A DNA stretch of 28,916 nucleotides. It comes from a virus. A program made the position numbers and the translations under genes. Each line of letters starts with the position of its first letter. Positions within the stretch are counted from its first letter, which is position 1. The notes beneath the pieces were generated by a model, which saw only the letters and a program-made list of their open reading frames with translations, was not told the DNA's origin and did not search any database. Positions 1-17,700 of the stretch are shown here, one piece after another. Where the stretch lies: the IMG/VR virus record IMGVR_UViG_3300047481_001044, positions 1-28,916 of that record, one strand, 5' to 3'.

Positions 1-1349
1 GCATTTTTTTCTTCATAGCTAATAAAAAACACATCATATGATTTATGACAAGATATTAATCTATCATTTTCTTTTTTATTAGCTATTGCTCTAAAATTAA
101 ATTCTCTTTTACTAATAGCATCAACTGAAGAAAATAACACAGGCGAATTATGAGTTATAATCTTATTGTTAAATTTATGCTTGAACGTATTATGTTCTTC
201 AATATTGTGTTTTGTTTTCCAATCTTTTGGATCAAAATAAAAATCAAAAATTGTATTGTCTGTTATTTCGATTTCTGGCCAGATTCCCCAAAACATTTTT
301 TGAGTTTCTTTTTCAAATATGTTAAGATAGTCTTCATAAGAATTTAAAACATATCTAGGATATCTATATCTTGTTGCTACTATATCATATTCTTTTTTTT
401 CAACAACATATCTTGCATTAAATTCTTTTTTAGAGATTGGTTTAAATTTGCTACATAATATCATACCGTTTATATACGATGAAGAATCATTACAGGCATT
501 TTTAAAAATATGATTTTCAGCACGATCATAATCTAACGAACCGTCATTTGGATCAAAATAAAAATCAAATATCGAATCATCAATAACTTCTATATTTGGC
601 CACTGGCACCAAAACATTTTTTGTTTTTCGGTGTTGACAATTTCTAAATAATCTTCGTAAGTGTTGATTTTGTAAATAGGATATTGATATTTGCTAACTA
701 TACGATCGTATTCTTTTTTATCAACAGCGTATTGATTATAAAACTCTATGCTAGACAAAGGTTTATATTTGCTACATAAAATTACTCCGCTAAGATACGA
801 TTCTGTGTTATTGCAAAGGTTCTTAAACACATGATTTTCTCTACGATCATAACTATTATGATGACTAAAATACATGTCAAATAATGTACTATCAATTATA
901 GTAAGTTCTGGCCATACTAACCAAAACATTTCATCTGTTATTTTTTCATATTCTTCGTACGACTTCGGAGAATATACATTATATTTTTTTGGTTTACTAA
1001 CTTCAATATCAATTTCTTTTTTGTTAGTAAAAAATCTATGATAAAATTCTTTAGTTGAGATTTTTACATTTTTTGGAAAAAGGCCAACGCCATCATAAAA
1101 ATCTCCATTTTTAAAAACATGGATGTACATATCATCCCATTTAGTCGCTTTATAATCTGTAATATTAAAAGAATCTAACAAATCAAGATCGTCCCAAATA
1201 ATCCAAAACATTTTAGTAAATGCCTTAGACTGAATCTGATCATATGAAACAACATTATCTATTTTTTGAGCATACGGATATCGAGATTTAATTTTTTCCC
1301 AGTCTAAAAAATTTCCGTTGTTTTTAGAAATATAAAAAATATCATACAT
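1..1349 (-). CDS. Multi-repeat glycosyltransferase-like protein, C-terminus cut by window edge
   Basis: This is an open frame of 449 codons from ATG at 1349 to the left edge with no stop; the C-terminus lies outside the window. The start overlaps the stop of the upstream glycosyltransferase gene by 8 bases (ATGTATGA), so translation is probably coupled; no strong ribosome binding site is visible. Four tandem modules of about 94-107 residues begin at 'MFW' at residues 47, 141, 245 and 352. Each runs MFWxxW, an acidic/hydrophobic stretch, FDxYF, DRxENHxFKN, a Gly/Leu/Cys/Ser/Lys stretch, an E-F/Y-R/Q segment, KKExD and a 'YxxYxxxSYEDY' linker. The first residues (YDIFYIS) and the last visible ones (YDVFFISYEEKN) match the start of the 304-residue glycosyltransferase next door (FDVVFLSYDEPNA). 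I infer that the modules are diverged GT-A-like units and that a further glycosyltransferase-like unit follows beyond the edge. The DxD metal motif is not conserved in the modules, so activity there is doubtful. Confidence 0.85.
   Translation of the reverse strand, partial: MYDIFYISKNNGNFLDWEKIKSRYPYAQKIDNVVSYDQIQSKAFTKMFWIIWDDLDLLDSFNITDYKATKWDDMYIHVFKNGDFYDGVGLFPKNVKISTKEFYHRFFTNKKEIDIEVSKPKKYNVYSPKSYEEYEKITDEMFWLVWPELTIIDSTLFDMYFSHHNSYDRRENHVFKNLCNNTESYLSGVILCSKYKPLSSIEFYNQYAVDKKEYDRIVSKYQYPIYKINTYEDYLEIVNTEKQKMFWCQWPNIEVIDDSIFDFYFDPNDGSLDYDRAENHIFKNACNDSSSYINGMILCSKFKPISKKEFNARYVVEKKEYDIVATRYRYPRYVLNSYEDYLNIFEKETQKMFWGIWPEIEITDNTIFDFYFDPKDWKTKHNIEEHNTFKHKFNNKIITHNSPVLFSSVDAISKREFNFRAIANKKENDRLISCHKSYDVFFISYEEKN
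18..1214 (-). repeat. Four tandem in-frame protein repeats (degenerate GT-A-like modules)
   Basis: The in-frame 'MFW' codons begin at 1211, 929, 617 and 296, giving spacings of 94, 104 and 107 codons. The last two units are also close at DNA level: ggatcaaaataaaaatcaaa occurs at 229-248 and again at 550-569, exactly 321 bases (107 codons) apart. This suggests recent duplication of that unit, while the first unit is the most diverged. Confidence 0.8.
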
Positions 1350-2256
1350 TTGCAGGCACCGGCATTCTAAAATAGGTATCATTTAAATTCATAGTTTCGT
1401 TGTATAAATCTAAAGTATACTTGCTTTGTTCAGGGTCTAAATAGGGCCAATGTAGTCCTAATTTAATTTTAATTTTTTCACCTAAATCTTTTGTCTCTTC
1501 GATTAATCCGCTGATATTCTTTTCATATTGCTTTACATTTTCATTGTAAATATTTCTTAAAATTTCAAAATCTCGTACATCAATATAATTCCAATCTGTA
1601 CAATTGGCCATCCATGTACCTAATCTCGCTCCGAACACCGCAAATAATCCATTTTCTTCGTGCGATCCAACTGTTGACCACATACGAAGTCTATGAATAT
1701 TGTGCCACCAAATACGTTGTTGAATTTCCGATGGCGAAACTTTAACTCCGTCGAGCAAGGTCATTTTTACACCTTCACGAAATCCTGCTCGCCAGGCCTG
1801 AATAGGCGATCCTGTAATGATACTATCACTGAAGCTTAGAGGAAAATTTTTATAACCATCTTCCCAACAAAAATCAACCTGTCCGCGATCACTTTCGGAA
1901 TTTTCGTGAGTTTTCATATTAAGAACAAAATTTTTGTTCCAAATTTTCAATCCGCCGTTGCCATAACGTAATCCGTTAATTACATTACGACCACACCAAC
2001 CATAAACCTGTATTTTAGAATTACTCATATCTAGATCGATATTAAAAAATCTAGAATCTACAATGTTATCGGCATCTACCGTAACAAACCAATCCGTTTC
2101 ACTTTGTTCAGCAGCAGCCTTATGAGCATGATCAGAACCTTTAACACCGTGTACACGTTTAGCCCAAGGTACCTTATTGCATAGATCTGCATAATGCAAA
2201 TCTGCATTAGGTTCGTCGTAACTTAAAAAGACAACATCAAATTCTATAATCTTCAT
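1342..2256 (-). CDS. GT-A-type glycosyltransferase-like protein (304 aa)
   Basis: This is a probable nucleotide-sugar-dependent glycosyltransferase acting in the host cytoplasm; its donor and acceptor cannot be read from the sequence. It opens with FDVVFLSYDEPNADLHY (residues 6-22), a beta-strand followed by an acidic loop typical of GT-A N-termini. An 'AKRVHGVKG' segment (residues 32-40) and 'AHKAAAEQSETDWFVTVDADN' follow, with a DxD-type metal/sugar-nucleotide motif at residues 61-63. Then come a 'GRNVINGLRYGNGGLKIW' stretch and a charged helical tail. Its start overlaps the upstream stop as ATGA at 2256-2253, and GGAA lies 5 bases before the ATG. The downstream gene overlaps it by 8 bases. 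Its first 100 residues align by eye with the repeat modules of that downstream gene, so the two appear homologous. Family assignment is from motifs only. Confidence 0.75.
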   Translation of the reverse strand: MKIIEFDVVFLSYDEPNADLHYADLCNKVPWAKRVHGVKGSDHAHKAAAEQSETDWFVTVDADNIVDSRFFNIDLDMSNSKIQVYGWCGRNVINGLRYGNGGLKIWNKNFVLNMKTHENSESDRGQVDFCWEDGYKNFPLSFSDSIITGSPIQAWRAGFREGVKMTLLDGVKVSPSEIQQRIWWHNIHRLRMWSTVGSHEENGLFAVFGARLGTWMANCTDWNYIDVRDFEILRNIYNENVKQYEKNISGLIEETKDLGEKIKIKLGLHWPYLDPEQSKYTLDLYNETMNLNDTYFRMPVPANV

Positions 2257-2849
2257 CTTATTTCCAATGTATAATTAGAAAACAGTCGTCGAGTAAAAAT
2301 ACTAAATTTGGTACGCAACTTACATTTAAATTTTTGAGGATAAGCAGTTAATTCATCAATAGAAAACTTTATCATTTCTTTTAAATCGTTAGGATCATTA
2401 TATCCTGTTACTAAAAATATCATTTCTTTTTCGCCTGGCCAGGTCATTTCTTTAATAGACGGGTTGATCTTAAAAGTTAATTCTTCATTAGATCTATCAT
2501 AAACGATATGAATATCAGGTTTAGATATTGTTGACCATTTTTTTTCTATAATTCTATGAAGTACATTATCTATCTTCGATAATACTAAATTATGAGATTG
2601 ATCTTCTAAAATTTTAAAAGGAAATTCAGTTATATCTATTTTTATCGAAGTTAACGACTTTATTCCTCTTAAAAGTTTATCGGCTAGATCAGCATCAATC
2701 TCTAAACAATTTTTATCAGAAATATTAGTGCGACTAGGAAAAACTTCAGTAATTGCACCTGTCGAAAAAGAAAATCTAACATAATATTTTAAAACAGGAA
2801 TATCAACTACTAAATCAAAGTAACCGTCTTCTATTGTTTCTTGAACCAT
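2253..2849 (-). CDS. Hypothetical protein (198 aa) within the glycosyltransferase cassette
   Basis: I do not recognise this family. It is a mixed alpha/beta, charged, soluble-looking protein with no signal peptide or membrane segment. Notable segments are 'DLVVDIPVLKYYVRFSFSTG' near the N-terminus, 'HIVYDRSNEELTFKINPS', 'MTWPGEKEMIFLVTGYNDP', and a basic C-terminus with several Lys/Arg and Phe residues. The ATG at 2849 has AGAGG 7 bases upstream and overlaps the preceding glycosyltransferase gene by 19 bases. Its stop overlaps the next ATG as ATGA. Its place between three glycosyltransferase-like genes suggests work in the same pathway, for example an accessory or acceptor-binding subunit, but that is context only. 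Confidence 0.75.
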   Translation of the reverse strand: MVQETIEDGYFDLVVDIPVLKYYVRFSFSTGAITEVFPSRTNISDKNCLEIDADLADKLLRGIKSLTSIKIDITEFPFKILEDQSHNLVLSKIDNVLHRIIEKKWSTISKPDIHIVYDRSNEELTFKINPSIKEMTWPGEKEMIFLVTGYNDPNDLKEMIKFSIDELTAYPQKFKCKLRTKFSIFTRRLFSNYTLEIR

Positions 2850-3676
2850 AAAACATCCTCTAGTAGACTTATATATTCAGCTGTAATTAAATCTTTTTCT
2901 ACATAATGAAGAATATTCGTCTGTTCAAAATTTCCAATTTTTAATCTACCCTTTTCATTCAAATAGAATCCTACATGATCAGTGACTCTTTCCGAAGTAA
3001 AAGACCAATCTTGTATCATAGATTTTAAGTGTGTAATCTTTGGAAATCCTAAATCATAACTAATTTCATCTGAAATATCTAAAATTTTTGCACTTAACGC
3101 AAATGCTTCATCGGTACCTATGATTTTTGGTTTGTGCTTATCTAAAAAAACATTACTAAACTCTTCTGGATTTTCTATTATAGACCTTCCCAAGTTAAAA
3201 AACTCTTTAGCAAGATCAGATCCTCTATCAAAAAATGTATAGAAGCTGTAAAGATTTGGAAGATTGTTTGTTTCAAAAGCTTTTCTATAGTAACAACTAG
3301 TTACAACTTCATCTCTAAACGTATAAGATTTATTTGGCAGATATAACTCGGTATTATTTTCTACGAAATAATCTATCCAATGACTATAATCTCTTAAAAA
3401 CAACATATCTGCATCTAAACAAACAGTGTATTCGAACGGAGTTAGCTCATCCATCCAAGATCTTCCGTCCCACCCTTGTTTCTTATTCCATTCGATAACA
3501 TGATCAAATACCCAAGGAGAATTTACAGTATCGACTTTAGATTTATCATCTATCACCAATGCTACTTTATCGTAACCTTCTTTCTGTGTATTTTTTATAC
3601 TAATGGCTAAACTGTATGCTAATTTTAAATAATCTAATTTTTCGTTAGACACAAATATTAAGTATCCAAAATTCAT
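2831..3676 (-). CDS. GT-A-type glycosyltransferase-like protein (281 aa), GT8-like layout
   Basis: This is a probable glycosyltransferase. It starts with a hydrophobic strand (FGYLIFVSNEK), then an alpha/beta nucleotide-binding half with 'KVALVIDDKS' at about residues 37-46. The metal-binding motif is CLDADMLFLRDY, with DAD at residues 88-90, the arrangement seen in GT8-like and related GT-A enzymes. A Tyr/Phe-rich acceptor-side region follows ('LYSFYTFFDRGSDLA'), then 'IIGTDEAFALS', a typical late acidic motif, and 'NILHYVEKDL' near the end. The ATG at 3676 has GGAG 5 bases upstream and overlaps the previous stop as ATGA (3676-3673). The next gene with its layout is the upstream 286-residue protein; the two look like diverged paralogues ('GxLIFxxN' start, 'VxLVxD', DxD). 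Donor and acceptor are unknown. Confidence 0.75.
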   Translation of the reverse strand: MNFGYLIFVSNEKLDYLKLAYSLAISIKNTQKEGYDKVALVIDDKSKVDTVNSPWVFDHVIEWNKKQGWDGRSWMDELTPFEYTVCLDADMLFLRDYSHWIDYFVENNTELYLPNKSYTFRDEVVTSCYYRKAFETNNLPNLYSFYTFFDRGSDLAKEFFNLGRSIIENPEEFSNVFLDKHKPKIIGTDEAFALSAKILDISDEISYDLGFPKITHLKSMIQDWSFTSERVTDHVGFYLNEKGRLKIGNFEQTNILHYVEKDLITAEYISLLEDVLWFKKQ

Positions 3677-4533
3677 ATCAACTCCATTAGTGCGTCTTTA
3701 TTTCGAATGATACTTTGTTTATTCATCACATGAAGATCCGTATCTATAATTTTAACTGATTTGAAATTACCGTCGTTCATTGGATCCATTAAAACAATCA
3801 TCTTTCCGTTTTTATCTATTTCTAACAAAATATCTTTATCAAGAACTGATGTTATCGGAGGCAAATTATAAACATTTTCTATTTCATAACCGCTTAAAAT
3901 ATGTTTTGCTATACTAAAAGCAATATCATTCCTGAACTGCGTTGAATTAAACCTAAAAAGATCAGCAAAGTATACATAATTTAATTTGATGAATTCAACT
4001 AATTTAAAAAAGAATTCACTTTCTTTATTCTTTTTAAACATTACTGTAGTTGCCCATAATAAAGGAATACTAGGCTCAGATACTCTTTTATCTAAATAAC
4101 CTGGCCTATCTTCTAGGATGTCATTCATCGAACTTCCTACCATTACACTAGATTCGATACTCCAATATTCGTTTAGTTTGTTAGTGAAAATTAAAAAATC
4201 GCTATCTATTAACAATGTTTCGTCGTACGGTGTAAGAAAAAATGCATCGCATCTATTAGAATTTATAAATGGCACTGTTTGATGATCAAATCCATCATAT
4301 AATTTTCTTGTATTCTCTGTATAAGGATATTCTATTTCTATAACTTTTTCAAAGATGTCATTCAATTTTTTTTCTAATCCGTTGTTTTTTAACCAAGCTA
4401 ACGTTCCTTTGTCAGTGACTAAAGACACGGGTAATCCAAGATTTTTTTTAGCAAGTCCGCCCGAGATAATTGCTAATGTACCGTAATCTACAAACGGACT
4501 ATTATGCGCAAAAATTAAAATTCCTTTATTCAT
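3673..4533 (-). CDS. GT-A-type glycosyltransferase-like protein (286 aa)
   Basis: This is a probable glycosyltransferase, paralogous in layout to the 281-residue protein downstream. It begins MNKGILIFAHNSPFVDYGTL, followed by 'LPVSLVTDKGTLAWL' (residues 34-48), a nucleotide-binding-type strand and loop. The DxD motif is ETLLIDSDFLIF, with DSD at residues 110-112. After this come 'SIPLLWATTVMFKK' and 'FNSTQFRNDIAFSIAKHIL', which resemble the acceptor-side strand and acidic helix of GT-A enzymes. The C-terminus is beta-rich and ends in a short charged helix. The start overlaps the stop of the 116-residue gene as ATGA (4533-4530). The visible Shine-Dalgarno is weak (GGA close to the ATG), so coupling to upstream translation is likely. 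The substrate is unknown. Confidence 0.7.
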   Translation of the reverse strand: MNKGILIFAHNSPFVDYGTLAIISGGLAKKNLGLPVSLVTDKGTLAWLKNNGLEKKLNDIFEKVIEIEYPYTENTRKLYDGFDHQTVPFINSNRCDAFFLTPYDETLLIDSDFLIFTNKLNEYWSIESSVMVGSSMNDILEDRPGYLDKRVSEPSIPLLWATTVMFKKNKESEFFFKLVEFIKLNYVYFADLFRFNSTQFRNDIAFSIAKHILSGYEIENVYNLPPITSVLDKDILLEIDKNGKMIVLMDPMNDGNFKSVKIIDTDLHVMNKQSIIRNKDALMELI

Positions 4534-4880
4534 AGTTCCAAAAGCTTTTGCAATGATCTAGTGGTTTTTACCTTTTCGTATTCTTTATAATATTCCAAGG
4601 TAGAAGTAAAATATCTGTCCAGTATTTCGTTTTTAAATTCTTCTAGGTCTGTAATTAGGATCGGATTTTCATTTGAATCTAGCAAGGGTACATCATTTTT
4701 TCTACCCATATTGATTAACATATCAACAAAAGCAATTAAAGACATATCAATTTTAAATATACCACCTCCATAGCCGTAGGTGAGCTTTGCTTCATTTTTT
4801 TCTTTTAAAATTTTTCGTTGAATTGAAAAAGTATACCGAAAATTAGAAAAATCTAAGGCTTTTTTAAGACGTTCATCCAT
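4530..4880 (-). CDS. Hypothetical small protein (116 aa) between fibres and glycosyltransferases
   Basis: This is a short, charged, mostly helical protein with no signal peptide or membrane segment. It starts MDERLKKALDFSNFRYTFS, has a Tyr/Gly-rich turn (LTYGYGGGIFKID) around residue 35, then a hydrophobic helix (LIAFVDMLINMG), and ends in a Lys/Glu-rich helix. The general pattern reminds me of small conserved proteins encoded beside fibre genes in marine T4-like phages, but I cannot name a function. AGGGGA lies 5 bases before the ATG. The gene follows a strong inverted repeat at 4893-4928 and is coupled by ATGA to the first glycosyltransferase. T4-like phages often encode small fibre-assembly chaperones near their fibres, so that is one possible role. 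Confidence 0.75.
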   Translation of the reverse strand: MDERLKKALDFSNFRYTFSIQRKILKEKNEAKLTYGYGGGIFKIDMSLIAFVDMLINMGRKNDVPLLDSNENPILITDLEEFKNEILDRYFTSTLEYYKEYEKVKTTRSLQKLLEL

Positions 4881-5948: not shown

Positions 5949-7697
5949 TTATATTACAATACATTCAACAACTTTTTCCTGAACATCGTCATTGGATTCT
6001 AACGCTATAGCAAAAACATCAGAGTGTGAGTGAAAAGCGGCCTTTTGTGCAGCACCATTATCAACTGCTATCAACCGATCTCCTTTTTTAATTGCTCCTA
6101 CTACTTTTACAGGAACCCTACCCTTAAGTGCTACTGCTACGCCATCAGATAAGTTATCATTCATAAGATATGCAGGATAAGCTGAGATAACACCGATGGC
6201 TCTATCTCCAAATTTTGATGCCGTAATTTCTTTTTCTCCGCCGATAGATACAACCGTTCCAACTTCGTATTCAGTGTCTGGCAAATATTTTTCAGCTAAA
6301 TCGCCGTATTCTGCCGCAGTTGCAGTTCCTCTAAACTTGACAGCATATATATCACCAGAAGAATCCCTAGCTGCTATAGTACTGGCTGTGGCAGTAGTCT
6401 TGGCAGATCGATAATTAGGATCGGTATCTGATGCAGCGTCGTTAATTCGTAACCTATCGGATTTATCTGATATTCCTACAAATTGATTTGCTAAAATATT
6501 TCCAGATGAATTTCTTATGGGTATTGTACTATTAACTATAGATTCCGAAGCTGATACTCCGCCTAATGTAGATGCAGATGATGCTGTTCCTGTAACACTT
6601 CCAGTAACGTTTCCAGTCAAATTACCAGAAAAACTACCGGTATAAATCTTTGTAGTGGCATTATATGCAACAGAATTGTCACTTGCTAATATATTTCCTT
6701 TATGAACTCCGGTAGTATTTCCAGTAACGTTTCCTACCAACGAACCGTTGAAAGTAGATGCAGTTACCTGTAACCATGAGGAGCCTATTGCGCCTAAATT
6801 AAATGTTGCATCAGCAGCAGGGAATACTCCTGTAGTACCTATTGTTAAAACATCTAGATCAACAGCGGTTTTAATTCTAAATGTTATATTATCTCCGAGT
6901 TGATTTTCTAGTAAAACATTATTACCGTCTTCTACCCATATCCTTAGATCATTCTGATCGCCTATTGTTATTCCGGAATCAGCTACAGATAATCCTGTTG
7001 AAAAAGTTGCTGCGCCCGATCTTACAAAATCAGTAGCAGAAAAACCTCCTAGTTTTGCAGCATTAGAAGCAGTACCCCAGAAATAATGATCGGTACTAGT
7101 AACTCCTGTTGTTCCATTGGTGTTAACAAGATTTATACCTTTCTTAATATCCTGAAAACCTGTTATCGGATTAGACGTATTCAATCTGAATGCATCTGCA
7201 CTTAAAATTGCAACGACTTCTCCTTCAGATATTAATTTTAAAATAGAATGATTGTTATTAACATCATCTTTAACAGTGTCTTGAACTGCTGCAGATTCGC
7301 CTGTAGTAGGACTGGCTTCTGGACCAATTAATATATATTCAGTTCCATTCCATGTATATAACTGTTCGGTGCTGGTGTCAAACCACAAATCTCCTGTTTG
7401 TAACCCAGGAGGAGGCACAGAGCCCACTTCGGCACCGCTAGCGGATCTAAATCTAGTACCATCAAAAAATTTAAGTTTTTTAGTTCCGGTATCAAACCAA
7501 ATTTGTCCGGTGATTTTCTTAGGCGGAGCTGTAGTATTAGCAAAATTTTCTAATAGATGGAGGAAATTTTCGTTTTGTACTTCACCGTATCCGGCATAGT
7601 TTTTTCCAACAAATCTAAGATCTGTGGTGGTATCAATAGTGCCGTCATCGACCGATACTAAAAACGTGCCGTTAAATTTATCAACTTGATATGCCAT
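5949..7697 (-). CDS. Tail fibre-like structural protein (582 aa)
   Basis: This is one of four paralogues sharing an N-terminal module: 'NYAGYGEVQNENFLHLLENF' near residues 33-52, then two 'GQIWFDT...LKFFDGT'-type segments up to about residue 125. The middle is Ser/Thr/Gly/Asn-rich and includes GNVTG/GNLTG repeats (about residues 314-376), typical of fibrous beta shafts. The C-terminal domain from about residue 454 ('TAAEYGDLAEKYLPDTEYEV', 'RAIGVISAYPAYLMN', 'VALKGRVPVKVVGAIKKGDR') is shared with the 710-residue paralogue. It is probably a trimeric fibre, with the N-terminus anchoring and the C-terminus distal. The gene has its own late promoter at 7718-7725 and a GGAG 7 bases before the ATG. 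I cannot tell which fibre is the receptor-binding one. Confidence 0.85.
   Translation of the reverse strand: MAYQVDKFNGTFLVSVDDGTIDTTTDLRFVGKNYAGYGEVQNENFLHLLENFANTTAPPKKITGQIWFDTGTKKLKFFDGTRFRSASGAEVGSVPPPGLQTGDLWFDTSTEQLYTWNGTEYILIGPEASPTTGESAAVQDTVKDDVNNNHSILKLISEGEVVAILSADAFRLNTSNPITGFQDIKKGINLVNTNGTTGVTSTDHYFWGTASNAAKLGGFSATDFVRSGAATFSTGLSVADSGITIGDQNDLRIWVEDGNNVLLENQLGDNITFRIKTAVDLDVLTIGTTGVFPAADATFNLGAIGSSWLQVTASTFNGSLVGNVTGNTTGVHKGNILASDNSVAYNATTKIYTGSFSGNLTGNVTGSVTGTASSASTLGGVSASESIVNSTIPIRNSSGNILANQFVGISDKSDRLRINDAASDTDPNYRSAKTTATASTIAARDSSGDIYAVKFRGTATAAEYGDLAEKYLPDTEYEVGTVVSIGGEKEITASKFGDRAIGVISAYPAYLMNDNLSDGVAVALKGRVPVKVVGAIKKGDRLIAVDNGAAQKAAFHSHSDVFAIALESNDDVQEKVVECIVI
6570..6755 (-). 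repeat. GNVTG-type coding repeats in the 582-residue fibre shaft
   Basis: The protein reads NGSLVGNVTGNTTG and, 40 residues later, SGNLTGNVTGSVTGTASS. At DNA level ttccagtaacgtttcc recurs at 6599-6614 and 6719-6734, exactly 120 bases apart and in frame. Shorter copies of the same idea (GDITGNVT, GNITGNATTAT) occur in the 710- and 705-residue fibres. Confidence 0.7.
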
Positions 7698-7717
7698 CTA
7701 TAAACTCCAATATTCAG

Positions 7718-7725
7718 TATTTATA
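7718..7725 (-). promoter_or_regulatory. T4-type late promoter octamer TATAAATA
   Basis: The minus strand reads GTATAAATACTG in the 41-base gap upstream of the 582-residue fibre gene, an exact match to the T4 late consensus TATAAATA. A GGAG ribosome binding site and ATG follow at 7697. By T4 rules transcription would start about 6 bases after the octamer, giving a very short leader. It implies sigma gp55/gp33/gp45-type late transcription machinery elsewhere in the genome. Confidence 0.8.
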
Positions 7726-7738
7726 CGTTTAACTATTC

Positions 7739-9871
7739 TTATAATTTGCAAACAACAACCTCTATAACTCCTTCTGTGCCATCGAAATCTTCAAGAGCTT
7801 TCCCTACAATAGTTCCAATTTTTGGGTCTGCAGAAGGTCTAGCATACCCGTTTCCGCCACTAGTAAGAAGATCACCCTTGCGTATTTTACCTCTTACCTT
7901 GCAAGGAACCCTGCCTTCTAAAGCTATAGATACTACATATTCTCCTTGACATTCTGAATTCATTAAAAATCCCGGTTTAGTAGATACTACTCCGGCCACT
8001 GCTCTGGTTTCGTCTTGTGCAAGAGTAACTTCAAATTTACCTCCAAATTCTAATACTGTTCCAGGCTCATATGCATTATCTGCCACATAATTCTCAGCTA
8101 AGTCTGCATATTCCGCCGACGTTGCTCTTCCTCTAAATTTATTAGAACCTACATCAATATCTTTGTTTGATACCCATTTATCTCCGGTAGCTCTGTAATA
8201 AAATTCTGCAAAAGATCCATCTATTAATAAACCTGATTGATCCGCTGCTGCCGAAGTAGGTGACCCCGAGGCCAAAGTAAGCGTTTTATCTGCCACATTC
8301 ACAACAGTTGAATTTACGGATAACGTAGTTCCTTGTATTGTAAGATTACCTGTTATAATAAAATCTGCATTGGCTGTAATTGTTGTGCCGCCTACAGTCG
8401 GATATAACGAGCCCACTCTAGATAAACTTCCTCGATATTCAGTAGCATATACTTTATTCCAAGGAAAATCAGGCAATCCTAAATTTATAGAACCACTTTT
8501 AGTTTTAGTAAGTGCAGGTTGATTATCTCCACCTAATATAACTGCCTGTGCTGAACTAATAAAAGAAATAGCGGGATTATTCTGACTTTGTGGAGAATCA
8601 TTTATTTCTAAAGTTAAACCGCCATTTAAAACAGTAGATTCAATAGTCGGATTGTTACTATCCAGATATAATTTTAATTGTTGCCCTGTACCAATTTTTA
8701 CACCAAATTCTCCAACATTTAAATCGGCTAATATTCCTACAGAAGTTAAACTCGACTGTGTTACGTTAGGAGGAATTGTGTTTCCTGTTAAAGTATTAGC
8801 AGCAGCCGGAACTGTGATATTTGCACTTCCGTCAAATGATACACCGTTTATTAACACCGGAGTAGCTAATCTCGATGCTGTTCTGGCATTTCCAGTTAAT
8901 GTGTTTCCAACAAAAGTATTTGCTTCAATTACATCAAATCTACTAGTTCCTGAAATAGCTGTAACATTACCAGTTATATCTCCTATAAGATCAGCTGTAA
9001 TAGTTCCTGCACTGAAATTTCCAGAACTATCTCTAGCTACTACTTTTCCTATTACATTTGATGATGATGCATCTACTGCCCAGGTTGTCGCAGAGCTGCC
9101 ATCGAAATTACTTCCTATTAGATAAGTTCCTCGAGAAAGTATATTAGCAGTAGATGATTTTATGTTTATGCTTTGTGTCCCGTTAAAAGGAATACCGTTT
9201 ATATTAACATAATTTTCTAATCTAGTTGCACTTTCGGAATTACCCAATACATTCCCATTTAAATTTGTTCCAGATTTTAAATTAATACCTCTCACAAGAG
9301 CAGTATATCCAGTTAAATTTTCTGTTGTGCTAATTGTAAAAGAATCGCTGGTATATATTGCTATAGGTTCATTATTGCTATAAAAAAGAGCGGCTGGATG
9401 TTGTACTCCGTTAACATCTGCTATAGATTTACTTACTAATTTTGTAATTCCAAAATTTTCGATCGAATCGGGACCTATAAGATTCCAAACTTCGCCGTCG
9501 GATATATAAAGCTGATTGGTATTATTCTTAAACCATAATGCTCCCGGAATAGGATTCGTCGATGCTGCATCTACTGCCGAGTTTGGTGCTGTGTCTGATA
9601 CTGAAGCTCCGCCAGCAGGCGACCATCCTGTTCCGCTATAAACATTTAATGTTTTTGTTGAAGTATTATACCAAGTTTGACCAGTTATAGGTTTTGACGG
9701 AGCTGTTGAATTAGCAAAATTTTCTAAAATAAAAACAAAGTTTTCATTTTGTGTTTCTCCGTAGCCGGTGTAATTTCTTCCTACTAATCCTAGACTCGTG
9801 GAATTATCTAAAGTTCCATCTTCTAGAATAGTTAATCTTTCACCATTGAATTTATTAATTACATAAGCCAT
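7739..9871 (-). CDS. Tail fibre-like structural protein (710 aa)
   Basis: This is the second paralogue of the fibre set. The N-terminal module (MAYVINKFNGERLTILEDG, 'NYTGYGETQNENFVFILENF', 'GQTWYNTSTKTLNVYSG', 'GALWFKNNTNQLYISDG') covers about residues 1-140. A long Ser/Thr/Asn-rich beta shaft follows, with 'GDITGNVT' and 'GNTLTGNARTASRL' motifs. A segment around residue 500 ('GNLTIQGTTLSVNSTVVNVA') matches part of the 672-residue paralogue ('GNVIISGTLTVNDGD..NVEDKLIVLA'). The C-terminal domain from about residue 579 ('SAEYADLAENYVADNAYEPG', 'GVVSTKPGFLMN', 'ALEGRVPCKVRGKIRKGDLL') is homologous to that of the 582-residue protein. GGAG lies 6 bases before the ATG, and the gene follows the 672-residue gene by 11 bases. 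Expected role: host-recognition or side fibre. Confidence 0.85.
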   Translation of the reverse strand: MAYVINKFNGERLTILEDGTLDNSTSLGLVGRNYTGYGETQNENFVFILENFANSTAPSKPITGQTWYNTSTKTLNVYSGTGWSPAGGASVSDTAPNSAVDAASTNPIPGALWFKNNTNQLYISDGEVWNLIGPDSIENFGITKLVSKSIADVNGVQHPAALFYSNNEPIAIYTSDSFTISTTENLTGYTALVRGINLKSGTNLNGNVLGNSESATRLENYVNINGIPFNGTQSINIKSSTANILSRGTYLIGSNFDGSSATTWAVDASSSNVIGKVVARDSSGNFSAGTITADLIGDITGNVTAISGTSRFDVIEANTFVGNTLTGNARTASRLATPVLINGVSFDGSANITVPAAANTLTGNTIPPNVTQSSLTSVGILADLNVGEFGVKIGTGQQLKLYLDSNNPTIESTVLNGGLTLEINDSPQSQNNPAISFISSAQAVILGGDNQPALTKTKSGSINLGLPDFPWNKVYATEYRGSLSRVGSLYPTVGGTTITANADFIITGNLTIQGTTLSVNSTVVNVADKTLTLASGSPTSAAADQSGLLIDGSFAEFYYRATGDKWVSNKDIDVGSNKFRGRATSAEYADLAENYVADNAYEPGTVLEFGGKFEVTLAQDETRAVAGVVSTKPGFLMNSECQGEYVVSIALEGRVPCKVRGKIRKGDLLTSGGNGYARPSADPKIGTIVGKALEDFDGTEGVIEVVVCKL

Positions 9872-9882
9872 CTAACGCTCCA

Positions 9883-11901
9883 TTATACGAATGTTTCACT
9901 AATGTACTTCCAGCCAACACCGATTTGTATTTGAAAAGTTTTAACTGTTCTAGGTGATACTTGAATTGTTTGAGCCGGAACCGTTACCGGTGCAAAGGAA
10001 ACTGATGATATGCCCGGCGACGTTCCCGGAGACCCGCTAGGCGGTGTTAAGAAATTTGTAAAAGACGTAGATTTAGAACCTTCTACATCTGCAGTTGAAT
10101 TAGCATTTGTTAATGATGTACACAATATTCTTGCAACTGTTCCCACTTCATATTCTGTTATTGGGGCTAATGTAGTTAAAATTCCTTCTATTGCAACATT
10201 TGTTAATCCATCAGAAATATCCATACTAAAAACCAATGATCGTGTTCTAACAAAATTTAATACGTATTGTTTATTTGTAGCTTCTGTGTTTTCTGTAGCA
10301 GATAACAGCGTAGCCGATTCACTAGTTTGACTGGGTGCTGATTGAGATGTTGTAGCAACACCTCTCAGTAAAGGAAACCCCACATCAGTTTGTGTAGAAA
10401 AAGTTGATCCGGTAACCTGTCTAAACTGGACATTACCAGTACCATTAGGAGTGATTTGAATATCAGAATTCGTAGCTACCGCAGAAAATCTGTTTTGTTC
10501 TATTCTAAGAACAGGAGATCCTGCAGAAGGTCCAATTTGTACAAAAATTTGTGGTCCGAAACTTGTTACTCCCGGTATGCTTGTAATACCAGGGCCTAAA
10601 CTTGTTCCATCTATTACAGTAGTTCCGTTTATTTTAAATGCTTTTCCTGCTTCTAAATTAATATGCTCAGAACTATTCCAAGCATCGTCTGCTAGAGCCA
10701 TCCTTGTACCAGAAGAAGATTTATTTCCATTACTCCATTGAAATATATGATCTTTCAAAACCCATGTATTATAACTGGGACTGCTAACATCGTTGTCAAA
10801 AAAAGCACCCTTTAATACCATGCCTCCCTCGTCAGCATATTCATCTCTGTTTAAACTACTATCACCAGTTTGCGCCAAGACAATTAATTTATCTTCAACA
10901 TTTAATTCAGTAGTCTTAATAATAGTTACATCGCCATCATTTACTGTTAATGTACCACTTATTATTACATTTCCTTGTACAGCTATAGATCCACCTATAT
11001 TAACTTGACTATTAATATATGCATTGTCATTGTAAATTCCAACAGTTCTAGTAATAGGATCTACCGTGATTGCATCTTCTGATTCAAGATCTTTTTTCAC
11101 AGATATTTTAAATGTTTTATTATTAGCAATATTTGCCATTTGAACATTTGAATTATCTACGACTACTTGAAACTGATCGTCATTTCCTACCAATAGATTG
11201 TCTCTTATACTAAGATTTCCCTCAATAGAACCGCTAGTATCACTTCTTACATACGATGACGCTGGTTGATTTCCTAACTTATCGGAATTAGTTGCTGTCA
11301 CTGAAAATTTGATTCCGGCACTAGCGGCCTGATTGAATCCGGGAATGATTTCGATTCTGCCGAAGCCGGATATTTCTGCCTTTGGAGTAAACGTATCTTT
11401 AGAAAAAATTCCTAATAATACTGCATTTACATACAATAAGGTTACTATTCTTGTTTGATTTCTGTCGTCTAAAACATTAACAACTTTTAATCCGCTTAAT
11501 CCCTGACTTTGAGAATAATCTGGTCCTAGTAATATAGGATTGATGCCATCATAAAAATATAATTGTTTATCAGTGCTATTAAAAAACAAATCACCTATGG
11601 CTATATCAGTTGGGAGAGAATCGGCTATGGTCGCGCTGGAGACTGGTTGAAAAGACGAACCATTGTAAACTTTTAATTTAGCTTCAGAAGTATCGAACCA
11701 AATTTGTCCTCTAATCGGATTGGAAGGTACTGCAGATCCTGCAAAATTTTCTAATAATTTTATAAAATTCTCATTTAAAGCATCACCGAATCCGCTGTAA
11801 TTTTTTCCTATAAGAGTAAGATCAGTAGTCACATTGTCCAACTGACCGTCGGCTAAAGTAGTTAAAATTGTTCCGTCAGTTTTATTAATTGTATATGCCA
11901 T
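9883..11901 (-). CDS. Tail fibre-like structural protein (672 aa), variant C-terminus
   Basis: This is the third fibre paralogue, with the shared N-terminal module ('NYSGFGDALNENFIKLLENF' near residue 34, then 'GQIWFDTSEAKLKVYNG' and 'GDLFFNSTDKQLYFYDG'). The shaft includes 'GNVIISGTLTVNDGDVTI' and 'LNVEDKLIVLAQTGD', found in similar form in the 710-residue protein. The C-terminus differs from its two neighbours. After 'ATNKQYVLNFVRTRSLVFSM' comes 'ITEYEVGTVARIL' (about residues 576-590), a recognisable trace of the 'TEYEVGTVVSIGG' segment of the 582-residue protein. A Pro/Ser/Thr-rich tail then ends in 'IQIGVGWKYISETFV'. It may be a truncated or re-domained distal end. AAGG precedes the ATG, 9 bases after the collar-protein stop. 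Confidence 0.85.
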   Translation of the reverse strand: MAYTINKTDGTILTTLADGQLDNVTTDLTLIGKNYSGFGDALNENFIKLLENFAGSAVPSNPIRGQIWFDTSEAKLKVYNGSSFQPVSSATIADSLPTDIAIGDLFFNSTDKQLYFYDGINPILLGPDYSQSQGLSGLKVVNVLDDRNQTRIVTLLYVNAVLLGIFSKDTFTPKAEISGFGRIEIIPGFNQAASAGIKFSVTATNSDKLGNQPASSYVRSDTSGSIEGNLSIRDNLLVGNDDQFQVVVDNSNVQMANIANNKTFKISVKKDLESEDAITVDPITRTVGIYNDNAYINSQVNIGGSIAVQGNVIISGTLTVNDGDVTIIKTTELNVEDKLIVLAQTGDSSLNRDEYADEGGMVLKGAFFDNDVSSPSYNTWVLKDHIFQWSNGNKSSSGTRMALADDAWNSSEHINLEAGKAFKINGTTVIDGTSLGPGITSIPGVTSFGPQIFVQIGPSAGSPVLRIEQNRFSAVATNSDIQITPNGTGNVQFRQVTGSTFSTQTDVGFPLLRGVATTSQSAPSQTSESATLLSATENTEATNKQYVLNFVRTRSLVFSMDISDGLTNVAIEGILTTLAPITEYEVGTVARILCTSLTNANSTADVEGSKSTSFTNFLTPPSGSPGTSPGISSVSFAPVTVPAQTIQVSPRTVKTFQIQIGVGWKYISETFV

Positions 11902-11910
11902 TTTTTTACC

Positions 11911-14028
11911 TTAGAATTCTGTTGGTCCTGATCTAATAATAAAATTTAATGTCAAAAACGGATTCATTGTAGAAAATGCTGTTGACAAAGTTTCACTAGT
12001 TTTAATGCTTCCACTCGTAGGAAGATATTGAGTTTGAGATGGTGTAGTGCCGCCTCTTCCAGAAAAAGATCCAACATCTGTAGGAACAGCACTGTCTGCT
12101 CTCGTTGAATAATATTGTTCACCAGTAGAGCCAATCATATTATGTTCGTGATCAGGTAAGTTTGCCACTGTTAAAAATTGATCTGAAGAGCCGCCTGATC
12201 CACCGGTCGTTTGAGCTTCGATACCTTCAACTCGACCAGCAGGTCCTGATGGTTTTCCGGCTATCTGACCTGTAGCAGGAGGTGCTGCTTGAACAAGACC
12301 AGCAATAACTCCGTCATCTTTATTGTCCATATCATCTCTACCGAGCGGGAATCGACCTCTAAGATCAGGAAGTTTAAATGTTTCAAATCCGACAGTAGGT
12401 GCTCCATAAACATTTCCTATTACATTGTACAAAGTTCTGTACCTAGATATTTCTAATTCTCTACCGTCACAGAGTAAATATCCTGCAGGTACTGTTTCTC
12501 CGGCAAAAGGTATAATGCCGCCTATAGGTATTATTGCATCTTGTAAAAATTCTTGTTTACTTACTTTAAATAATCCTGTGGTTCCGCCCGTTGTAGACGG
12601 TGCAGGTCTAAAGATTAATAAGTCGTCATTTTTGTCTAAAGGATATCTTTCTATCGGAGCTCTTGTTTGACCGCTAATTATCTCGCTGGTTAAAGAAGTT
12701 TCTAAAGTAATTGATCCTTCTGTTCCTGTAAATGTTTCAACCGTCGAAGTAACAGCACCTATAGTTTTAAACAATGTTGGAAATTTTAGATTTGTCGCTG
12801 TTGTAGCATTACCTGTAATATTTCCAGTTAGAATGCCGAACAAATTTTGAGCATACAAATTTTTAGTATAAACAGCATTATATCTTAATTCATTACTTTG
12901 TCCTAAACTATAGGTATCAGTGACCGAAGGTCTTATATTACTAGTAGTAGTAACACCAGTAACGTTTAATGTAGTTCCTATTAAGACATTTTTAGAAACA
13001 GATATTCCGCCTGCAGTTCTAATGGTACCATTGTTAAAATTTGTGCTTTCTGTAGTGGAGGTTAAGATAATAGAACCATCTAACTTAAGATTCCCACTAA
13101 TATCTACTGCTTCGTCAGGAACATTTTTATTAATAGCAATTTTATTATCAATTATTCTTAAAACAGTTACAGGTCGATTATCTTGATTTGTTTGGATGTC
13201 GATACTACTACCTGCGGAAGAATTATAAATTTTTCCTGCGCCAGACGAAACACTGAAACTGAAAGTACCGTCAACACCTAAAGTAAGACCTTGGTTATTT
13301 TTAATATTAAAGCCTTGCTCTGTAGTATTAAGAACATCCGATCTTAGAAATCTCGATGCTGGAATTTCTGATCCAGATACATTTAAAGAATCTGAATTAA
13401 GTGCTGCGCCATAGAATTTAGGAGAAAATCCTCCTGATCCAAGATCGCTAACAGATGAAATATTCACACCAGATTTAATTGTTGTAAAGCCAGTGATAGC
13501 TATCTTAGGTGTAAAACTATCTTTAGAAACAATTATTACAGGACTATCTTCAACATAAAAAACAACAATTACTCTATTCAGATTTGTACTATCTACTATT
13601 TGCTCTACTAGAGGACCACTTCTTAATCCTGTTGAAAAATTAGGACCTACGAGAATCCAGCGTTCTCCGCTGAATATGTAAAGTTGTTGATTATTAGTAT
13701 CCACCCATAGCTCGCCTGTTTCAGCCGAAGCTAAACTAGGTTCATTATTATCAACCCTAATATTACTGGCTGATTTCCAGTTTGTTCCGTCGTATATTTC
13801 TAAACTTTTATTATTTGTGTTGAAATATAACTGACCTTCTACTGGATTCTGCGGCTTGGTAGCACTGGCAAAATTTTCTAAAAGATGTAAAAAATTTTCT
13901 GCTATATTTTGTCCGTAACTTGTAGTATTTCTTCCAGGAAATATCAAACTTGTTTCTGTATTATTGGTACTATCGTTAACAGTAATGGGTAATTTTGCAC
14001 TATCAGTGAAATTGACATTATATGGCAT
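11911..14028 (-). CDS. Short tail fibre / collar-domain protein (705 aa), T4 gp12-like
   Basis: The N-terminal module is the same as in the other three fibres but more diverged ('NTTSYGQNIAENFLHLLENF', 'GQLYFNTNNKSLEIYDG', 'GELWVDTNNQQLYIFSG'). At about residues 495-565 lies a phage tail collar domain: 'IPFAGETVPAGYLLCDGRE', 'SRYRTLYNVIGNVYGAP', 'FKLPDLRGRFPLGRDDM'. The tail has a Gly-rich linker, 'VANLPDHEHNM' (His residues that in T4 gp12-type tips can take part in metal binding) and the standard ending 'MNPFLTLNFIIRSGPTEF'. In T4, gp12 forms trimers folded under the baseplate that bind LPS irreversibly, and a comparable role is likely here. A GAGGT site lies inside the end of the preceding gene, and the gap between the genes is 2 bases. 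Confidence 0.9.
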   Translation of the reverse strand: MPYNVNFTDSAKLPITVNDSTNNTETSLIFPGRNTTSYGQNIAENFLHLLENFASATKPQNPVEGQLYFNTNNKSLEIYDGTNWKSASNIRVDNNEPSLASAETGELWVDTNNQQLYIFSGERWILVGPNFSTGLRSGPLVEQIVDSTNLNRVIVVFYVEDSPVIIVSKDSFTPKIAITGFTTIKSGVNISSVSDLGSGGFSPKFYGAALNSDSLNVSGSEIPASRFLRSDVLNTTEQGFNIKNNQGLTLGVDGTFSFSVSSGAGKIYNSSAGSSIDIQTNQDNRPVTVLRIIDNKIAINKNVPDEAVDISGNLKLDGSIILTSTTESTNFNNGTIRTAGGISVSKNVLIGTTLNVTGVTTTSNIRPSVTDTYSLGQSNELRYNAVYTKNLYAQNLFGILTGNITGNATTATNLKFPTLFKTIGAVTSTVETFTGTEGSITLETSLTSEIISGQTRAPIERYPLDKNDDLLIFRPAPSTTGGTTGLFKVSKQEFLQDAIIPIGGIIPFAGETVPAGYLLCDGRELEISRYRTLYNVIGNVYGAPTVGFETFKLPDLRGRFPLGRDDMDNKDDGVIAGLVQAAPPATGQIAGKPSGPAGRVEGIEAQTTGGSGGSSDQFLTVANLPDHEHNMIGSTGEQYYSTRADSAVPTDVGSFSGRGGTTPSQTQYLPTSGSIKTSETLSTAFSTMNPFLTLNFIIRSGPTEF

Positions 14029-14705: not shown

Positions 14706-14713
14706 GTATTTAT
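14706..14713 (-). promoter_or_regulatory. T4-type late promoter (AATAAATA) overlapping the giant gene's stop codon
   Basis: The minus strand reads CCAGAATAAATACACTATG. The octamer AATAAATA differs from the T4 late consensus at the first base and keeps the flanking C seen at 7718-7725. The TAA stop of the giant gene (14712-14710) lies inside it. It would give the 223-residue gene and the fibre genes a transcript independent of the giant gene. Confidence 0.65.
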
Positions 14714-17700
14714 TCTGGCAACTCCGTAGTCTTTTGCGACAAGAATACTGCTATAGATGTGTCGTTTTCTAATAAACTCTGTCCTGTTGTTGCAGTAGTT
14801 GTACCACGGGTATACCAAGATTTTCCTGTGCGCCTAATTACAGTAATTTTCGTTCCAATCTTAACTGGTTCAGAAAGACGTATATAATTCGAATCTCCGT
14901 CAACGCTGAATTCTGCTTGTAATGTTGTATCGGCGGACGGACTGGACGGACCTAGATCTTCTTTATAAATCGTTATAGGATCTTTTCTTAGCCTTGTTCC
15001 ACCAACAAATACTTCAATCTGATCGCAAGGACCGTAATCTGACGGAATATCATCACGATACCAAGCATTCCTATTAGATTTACTAGGGATATAAGGTAAA
15101 GGACCCACTAACAAAGTACTACCGTCACTTATAAAGTCGTTCTTATCTTGAGTTTCTACATATGGAATATTCTCGGACGATCCTAGATTTATTACATAAC
15201 TTCCTTGTGAATGTACTGTCGCTATCGCAGTACCAAAACTGCCTCGTCTCAATTGAGATATTGTATTTCCATTTATTGACAAATATTCAATTTTTTCTCC
15301 GTTAATTTCTATAATACCCGGGATATTCCGAGAGGCTATCGGAATAGAAAGATTTGATGCATCTGTTACTTTGATCGTTTGATCATAATAATTTAAATCT
15401 TGTGCTAGTTTTAAATTTTTATCGATGGAATAACGCTTGTAATGATAAACGTTTAGCATATCTTTAAAAATTTGATAAGCAGAGGATTTTTTATAAATCC
15501 TATTACCAAATTGGAAAATTTTAATTTTGTCTGTTATAGTAGTTTCTTCGGTTATGTATAACACAGAACGTGTAAGAGACACGGTATAATCTTTATTTCC
15601 TGTCAATCTTATACCATTCTTATATACCCAAACATAACTTGAATTGATAGTCGATGTTGGTAATCTATAAATTGATTTTCCGCCTGTATATTCGTCACTG
15701 ATAATATCAAACGTTGGATATTCGCTGAACCAAGTTACTGTTACAATATCTCCAGAAGTTAAACTTACTGAATCACTGATTACAATATCGTTGTTAGTGA
15801 TGCTGTATTCACTTCTTACATCATTTTCTATTTTAATTATATCTCCTACTTGAAGATTAACAACATTGACTGTTACTACACTTGTGGTCCCGTTGTAGGT
15901 CCAATCAACTAGAAAATCTTGTTCTACATTATTCACAAAAACTTTTATATTATTAGAAGTAATAGTTCCCGAAACTTCAGCTGGATCAACTCCTAATTGC
16001 AGTGTATTATTTGTGCCGTCATAAATTTGAACAACGGTATCAACACCTTTTAGATATGAATTGTTAACTTCTACTAACATAGCAGATCTAGAACTGTTTC
16101 TAGTTAGGTTAACAAACTTGTCTAAATCAAATGTTCTAATAACACCGTTGTATGTAAATGTTTGTTTATTAGACCTAATAACAGATTGTTGCGTACTGTC
16201 TGTATCAAGAGATGCTCCCAAAACTATTATCTTTACAACTTGGTTCAGCTCAGGTCTTTGACCAAATTCTATTAAAGTTTTTCCAACAGTTTCTGTTACG
16301 GTAGAACTTTCGATAAATCCTGTGTCAACTGCAATACCATCTACAGTAACTAATACAGATTGGGTGTTTGTATAATTTGCTTTAGTTAGAAAATGAGCTG
16401 TCTCGCCATCTGCTAGAAATTCGGTGTAGTCTAAAATTGCTACGCCACCGACCCCTATAGAAATTATTTCAATTAAAGAATCAACGGGTGGAGCATCATT
16501 AAATTCTATCTGATTAGTAACATAGTTAATAGAATATATTATGCTGCTTTCTTCAATAAAATCTTGTTTAACTTTATCTATATAAACAACTAATGATTCT
16601 CCTTCGAGTATATGCAATCCTATATCAAAATTCTTTTGTACTCCATCGGCAAAATACAAACGTAAATTAACTGGAGCTGCTCCTGTAAATGTTGAATTAA
16701 AAACTTTTATACTGAGACTTTCCAATACTTGACCTGGAACATTTTCTTCTGGAGCTGGGACTTGATCCGGATCTATTAGTTTACCTCCATCGATAGAAAT
16801 ATCTTGAGCTAGTGTACCCTGAGCAGTTGAATAAGACCCTGCTACAGAATTAGGACCCACTAATGTGTTAGTCCAGGTTCCGGCAAAAGAACCTCCGCTA
16901 ATTGCTGTGTCTAATAAATTCGGATCATTTATTGTAACAGTACCGTCGCTTTCAAAATTTCTAAAAATTAAAGTGTCTCCTGGAAAAGTTTGCACTCCAT
17001 ACTCGTCAAATACGACTGTTCTATTTTCACCGTCTCCGATAAATGTAGGCATAACTGCATGTTCTGGTAAAGTTGTTCTACCATTAGGCATAACAGTACT
17101 ACCATCATACATTCCAAAATATAAATCATCAATTCTTACTGTAGGAGGTTCATCTACAGCCGTATCGTATACCACTACCGGATTTCCGTTTATATCTAAA
17201 GTTTCAATAGATCTAAGTTCTTTCGATCCGGCACGTTTTAAGTATATGGATACCTTTTGTCCGATTGCTGGAGCTTTCGGTAATAAAACTGTTATAGTGC
17301 TGCCGTCATCTGAACTAGGTACAATATAAAAATAATCGTTATTCGATTCGACACTATCCCATCCGTCAGTAAACCACGGCAACGCATCCCATCCTCCGCT
17401 AACATCAAAGGTTGTTCCCTGAATTTGAACACCGCCGTAATCTATACCTGTCATCAACTGGTTGATAACTTTACCTTTCATACCTTCCATTGGAGAGTAA
17501 TATGCATCGATTCTGTTTACGCTGTCATAAATTTCATTAAATTTTTCATAGACGATCGTAATAAAATCGCCTTGATTTAATTGAATCAAGAATTTAATTT
17601 TGGCCTTAGTTAAAGAATAGGTATCTGTAGTGGAAGTATAATAGATGATTTCATATTCATTATTAAAAACGATCTGACCGTTTTTAGTGATTGATATCGA

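Follow-up and report, generated by a model that had tools for sequence, protein, structure and literature searches.

Gene content of the window and its relatives

The stretch of DNA analyzed here (the window, 28,916 nucleotides) is a 28.9-kb linear record of an uncultured virus of bacteria. A cassette of glycosyltransferase (GT)-like genes lies at its left end, entirely on the minus strand and downstream of a tail block. This tail or host-recognition region (4941-28914, minus strand) encodes a 331-amino acid protein, four tail-fiber-like paralogues, a 223-amino acid protein, and a virion structural protein of ∼4.7 thousand amino acids; PHROGs matches were to tail fiber, tail collar, and virion structural families, and tblastn led to virion structural proteins. 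The four paralogues lie in tandem (5949-14028) and have in common an N-terminal block that matches GxNYxGYGExxNENFxxLLENFA exactly or nearly; the last also carries a tail-collar-like part. The virion structural open frame at 14710-28914 exceeds 4,700 amino acids and is ∼25% similar to proteins of large-genome phages (Sinorhizobium phage Phosso and Agrobacterium phage Atu_ph07).

Adjoining the tail region on the minus strand are genes for a 116-amino acid protein (4530-4880), two putative GT-A-like enzymes with DAD/DSD (3673-4533 and 2831-3676; assigned by DxD pattern only), and a 198-amino acid protein (2253-2849). The two smaller proteins are unnamed, their places in the cassette being kept across divergent phages, and no Pfam family was found for the syntenic genes at 2253-4880. 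Two GT-like genes and proteins of ∼200 and ∼120 amino acids were observed upstream of modular genes, in the same order, in 45-50 of 59 testable cases. The next gene, P (P0002; 1342-2256, minus strand), is the upstream partner of the modular gene and encodes a GT-A-like enzyme of its own, complete and carrying DADN (DAD codons at 2068-2076). The ATG of the modular gene, at 1349 (MYDIFYIS), overlaps the stop-codon end of P by 8 nt, and the window edge cuts the gene at position 3, leaving its 5′ part (3-1349, minus strand).

In the initial annotation, this open reading frame was described as four tandem repeats of ∼100 residues, and this description was borne out: a profile from the repeats, iterated over related loci, matched all four units at 105-143 bits. 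The first unit, or N-cap (984-1349, minus strand), consists of 122 amino acids including an extra β1-α1, reads YDIFYIS...DWEKIKSRYPYAQ, and has W-D-D at the DxD position. It is followed on the same strand by module 2 (681-980; W-P-E; 127.5 bits with the module profile and 10.6 bits with the GT profile), module 3 (360-680; W-P-N; 142.6 bits), which was the target for AlphaFold2 modeling, and module 4, the last unit or C-cap (39-359; W-P-E; 104.8 bits). The motifs WDDLD, WPELT, WPNIE, WPEIE, and H-V/I-F-K-N that had been picked out by eye are present in the units. The YDxFxIS start attributed to all repeats is confined to the first unit and to the C-terminal domain that ends the protein, whereas the internal units begin YNVYSP, YPIYKI, and YPRYVL; secondary structure assigns these starts to β2 of the enzyme rather than β1.

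The last 12 residues visible, YDVFFISYEEKN (3-38, minus strand), had been taken for another degenerate unit. They align with YDVVFISYNEPNAD, with which the DGDA domain of relatives begins, and in complete relatives (L003-L006 and L008) they open an intact domain of ∼225 amino acids with V-D-G-D-A. These residues are thus the start of a C-terminal catalytic GT-A-like domain (C), the remainder of which lies beyond the window. Relatives of the modular gene were present at twenty viral loci. At L015 (2843-3300), L018 (859-1330), and L020 (5548-6055), an extra N-terminal region (FVWLVEEGI...IHLFPY...VQLVPT) precedes the first module and resembles an additional unit that has diverged greatly.

Members of the family are widespread among phage contigs from the environment, with at least 600 matches in a collection scan, yet the family is unnamed in Pfam, PHROGs, and NCBIfam. 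Searches of these databases with the window and its relatives gave nothing above curated cut-offs for the modular and GT proteins; one relative had a weak match to Pfam Glycos_transf_2 (E = 0.0042), below the cut-off. A PDB sequence search returned nothing useful, and tblastn against GenBank phage records with P0001 (E values up to 10), P0002, a complete modular protein, and a bacterial C domain gave no match. Given that the neighboring structural gene, the positive control, matched 64 GenBank phage records, the search itself was effective. Arrays of this kind were not found in a literature search that covered few subscription journals.

For 133 C-domain genes, P is found no more than 300 nt upstream; for 31 others it is not so close (redundant contigs counted). 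Several contigs carry a P-C fusion; in a contig of a Neisseriaceae MAG (L103, 2985-4634), the two form a single 550-amino acid open reading frame. At L172 (5347-6675), a P-C fusion includes a seemingly truncated P part that has lost its DxD region and is possibly a second degenerate GT domain. Radical SAM proteins are encoded downstream of modular genes in 39 of 68 cases, and in many phage contigs several of them come directly after the modular GT (L005, 7997-13377, and equivalents); two match NCBIfam N_Twi_rSAM (NF033640; 314 and 656 bits). In two Bdellovibrionia MAG contigs (L105 and L106, 5027-6681), the gene after P encodes a C-type GT with no modules, radical SAM genes are also present, and the surroundings look chromosomal.

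Relationship of the modules to the GT-A fold

The common core of the GT-A fold begins at β1, includes the Rossmann part, and ends in the C-terminal region (PMC7185993). The C domain of relatives is predicted to have this core: an AlphaFold2 model of a module plus GT had a pLDDT of 86.5, and the list of PDB matches was headed by GT-A enzymes, GT2-type enzymes being matched at E = 1e-6. The C domain of relatives also contains a DxD motif, of which D56 and D58 are invariant in an alignment (A1) of 40 C-type domains including P0002, and FRExxK is conserved. It is therefore designated a putative GT-A-type glycosyltransferase. The identity between P0002 and the C domain is 38%.

A profile of the modules, constructed with no full C domain in it, matched all 44 isolated C domains at 20-38 bits, compared with 6.9 bits for the best of 821 scored shuffles and -1.3 bits for the best reversal. 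Direct comparison of the module and C-domain profiles gave a probability of 96.5 and an E value of 8e-10. With the GT profile, each of 74 first units scored above 10 bits (median of 33 bits, with matches from GT position 1), whereas internal modules matched more weakly (median of 8.8 bits, 85/192 above 10 bits); no shuffle exceeded 10 bits in either set. The first unit of the window scored 32.4 bits over GT positions 1-86, against 5.5 bits for the best first-unit shuffle, and was the only window unit matched by the P-family profile (16.6 bits). These matches indicate that the first unit is the least degenerate copy and retains β1-α1. Window modules 3 and 4, taken alone, scored <2 bits with the GT profile, and their homology therefore rests on the family profile.

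By these profile and profile-profile comparisons, the modules are homologous in sequence to the GT-A family. The module profile did not match the adjacent DADN enzyme P0002 (-1.2 bits), and the profile similarity to that enzyme proposed initially extends only to the first window unit. The closest parent of the modules, as judged by sequence, is the C-terminal domain of their own protein. The proposal that a GT family was duplicated into a DxD-less array is thus upheld as regards GT-A homology and loss of the motif, but not as regards the adjacent enzyme as parent.

The AlphaFold2 model of module 3, obtained with a modules-only alignment, had a pLDDT of 86.7 and a pTM of 0.75. A Foldseek search of the PDB with the single-module model gave no match at E < 0.001; among the 50 matches listed, all were GT-A glycosyltransferases or related nucleotidyltransferases (best probability 0.97, TMq 0.60). 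The initial annotation had named a fold that was not GT-A-like, or a lack of profile similarity with the neighboring enzyme, as evidence against itself; neither was found, the structural neighbors being GT-A-like with a best E value of 0.05.

In the module plus GT model, the order of elements common to both parts is E-H-E-E-...-E-E-E-H-E. The module elements (E2-4, H8-17, E22-26, E30-32, E56-63, E66-68, E74-77, H84-89, and E95-105) run parallel to GT elements E135-138, H143-153, E158-163, E166-168, E187-194, E201-202, E207-211, H225-229, and E232-243, and each module is thus predicted to represent the middle of the GT-A fold, from β2 to the long strand; this mapping uses element order and sequence alignment, not superposition. 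The modules therefore do not correspond to the first ∼100 residues of the enzyme, as had been supposed. Internal modules lack β1-α1 and the C-terminal helices; by alignment, β1-α1 is kept in the first unit.

Loss of DxD, selection, and copy number

Aspartate at both DxD columns was observed in none of 266 distinct modules. The commonest triplets at this position were WPE (80), WDD (49), and WPN (20), with WDD typical of first units. Given the loss of DxD and the missing parts of the fold, the modules are apparently catalytically inactive. A set of module-specific residues is nevertheless conserved (D49, H54, E82, R86, and K91-K92-E93 in profile numbering), of which H54 and E82 are near-invariant. 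Purifying selection on the modules is as strong as on the catalytic domain (ω ∼ 0.10), with median ω values of 0.096 and 0.095, respectively, for 8 usable pairs, a small sample in which dS is high for some.

Among complete proteins, C occurs alone in 28 and as a P-C fusion in about 6, and 1, 2, 3, 4, 5, 6, 7, and 10 modules precede C in 12, 10, 17, 15, 15, 4, 2, and 1 proteins, respectively; the counts are taken from assembled metagenomes, in which repeats can collapse, and L010 may be such a case. Proteins with 98%-identical C domains can have four or five modules, and the reading frame of the 10-module protein is still open. The presence of modules was clustered on a tree constructed from 91 C domains (11 changes versus 25 in shuffles), and well supported branches force just one of the 11 gains or losses. 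Module-less homologues occur in related gene neighborhoods, and the array is thus not needed for the basic reaction.

The units follow one another with almost no linker. Across proteins of unlike copy number, the nearest relative of a first unit was a first unit in 52/52 comparisons, that of a last unit a last unit in 44/57, and that of a middle unit a middle unit in 117/126; the closest relative lay within the same protein for only 18 of 247 modules. New units thus seem to be added in the interior of an array that is itself old and position-specific. In its tandem units with almost no linker, its distinct first, middle, and last classes, and its variable copy number, the array shares the sequence features of a solenoid-type repeat array with capping units. 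At L121 (4362-5720 and 5689-6669), four modules occupy one open reading frame and a module plus C an overlapping second one, and L145 (4695-5993 and 5971-6948) shows the same split; these represent either two genes or a frameshift. Such a separate four-module frame means that the array may act in trans.

Origin and possible role of the array

It is very probable that the array arose from the enzyme itself. The core domain of a GT-A-type enzyme would have been duplicated, the copy trimmed to the portion from β2 to the long strand, with loss of β1-α1, DxD, and the C-terminal helices, and the trimmed copies amplified in tandem ahead of the intact catalytic domain. As an overall explanation, we favor a self-derived, inactive array that serves as a rigid arm for the acceptor or for partner enzymes, and consider its chances to be evenly balanced. 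The range of 0-10 copies between related viruses, together with the strong selection, points to a binding or positioning arm, a role in which our confidence falls just short of even. The near absence of linkers and the capping-like end units suggest a rigid rod. Conserved module residues would either bind the acceptor, which may be a glycan chain or a protein of the virion or host surface, or serve as docking sites for partner enzymes, and the acceptor would thereby be positioned for C and P; the same residues could equally form inter-module interfaces. The substrates are likely host surface polysaccharide or the tail fibers encoded next door, with host O-chain modification or virion glycosylation as the likely use. 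In a more specific and rather speculative form of this explanation, a capped rod of DxD-less GT-A mini-domains would grip the acceptor chain, gain and loss of middle units would set its length, and copy number would tune acceptor length or specificity.

Alternatively, the array may bind no sugar and act as a structural spacer, ruler, or scaffold that separates C from P, GT-like, or radical SAM partners or from the virion surface, its copies tuning length. This is a serious possibility, albeit one to which we incline less. It accords with the scarcity of linkers, the capping-like ends, and the change of copy number in mid-array, as well as with P and C being adjacent or fused and with the four-module frames of L121 and L145. 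The near-invariant H54 and E82 and the conserved K91-K92-E93, however, exceed the needs of a spacer, unless they are interface residues.

That the modules are active, metal-independent GT domains is highly unlikely. Some GT-A families, such as GT14 and prokaryotic GT6, are active despite DxD loss (PMC7185993), and an acidic residue is kept at the second DxD position in 195 of 266 modules, but two parts are missing from the modules: β1-α1 of the Rossmann core and the helix region with FRExxK at the C terminus. Chance likeness, or convergence on an α/β unit, is a shade more doubtful still: the single-module Foldseek E values of ≥0.05 and the weak GT-profile matches of internal window modules are what it would lead one to expect, and against it stand the shuffled and reversed controls, the profile-profile E value, the graded first units, and the collinear order of elements. 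Neutral decay into functionless duplicates, to which the rapid copy-number change between close relatives might be ascribed, is rejected as scarcely credible by the equal ω of modules and C and by the open frame of even the 10-module protein.

If the more specific, gripping-rod form of the explanation is correct, these proteins would represent a repeat-protein class built from an enzyme's own catalytic core. An enzyme core has here become a tandem, apparently dead array on its own intact parent, with copies that vary between near-identical phages and units that remain constrained. The family is well suited to asking how enzymes give rise to repeat proteins and whether repeat number is used by phages to tune glycosylation.

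In pelagimyophages, host-recognition clusters contain several GT genes among tail-fiber genes, for which host O-chain modification has been suggested (PMC7029224). The GT-like genes described here likewise lie beside tail-fiber genes; modular arrays are not mentioned in the parts of that report consulted. Two uncharacterized proteins of uncultured Caudovirales phages in BFVD, known from sequence only, A0A6J5LK21 (804 amino acids) and A0A6J5L5L5 (1076 amino acids), are structural matches (E = 4e-21 and 2e-20; 21-22% identity over >340 columns) with lengths that fit modular members, although their record names say nothing of repeats or function.

The module plus GT model matches the GT2-like GT-A enzymes K4CP (chondroitin polymerase), RmlT, PBCV-1 A064R, SunS, and WrtF at E values of 1e-6 to 6e-4. 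In these enzymes DxD is conserved, as in the C domain, and no curated Pfam, PHROGs, or NCBIfam family covers the modular GT. To our knowledge, in none of these structures is the core itself repeated in tandem in truncated form. K4CP has two related GT-A domains per polypeptide, both complete, which resembles the P-C fusions or adjacent P and C genes; unlike K4CP, the modular GT places 0-10 truncated, DxD-less units between P and C. The lectin domain of ppGalNAc-T and the TPR array of OGT are non-catalytic parts thought to guide the acceptor. These enzymes likewise combine a catalytic GT with a non-catalytic appendage, whereas the appendage of the modular GT derives from its own core fold.
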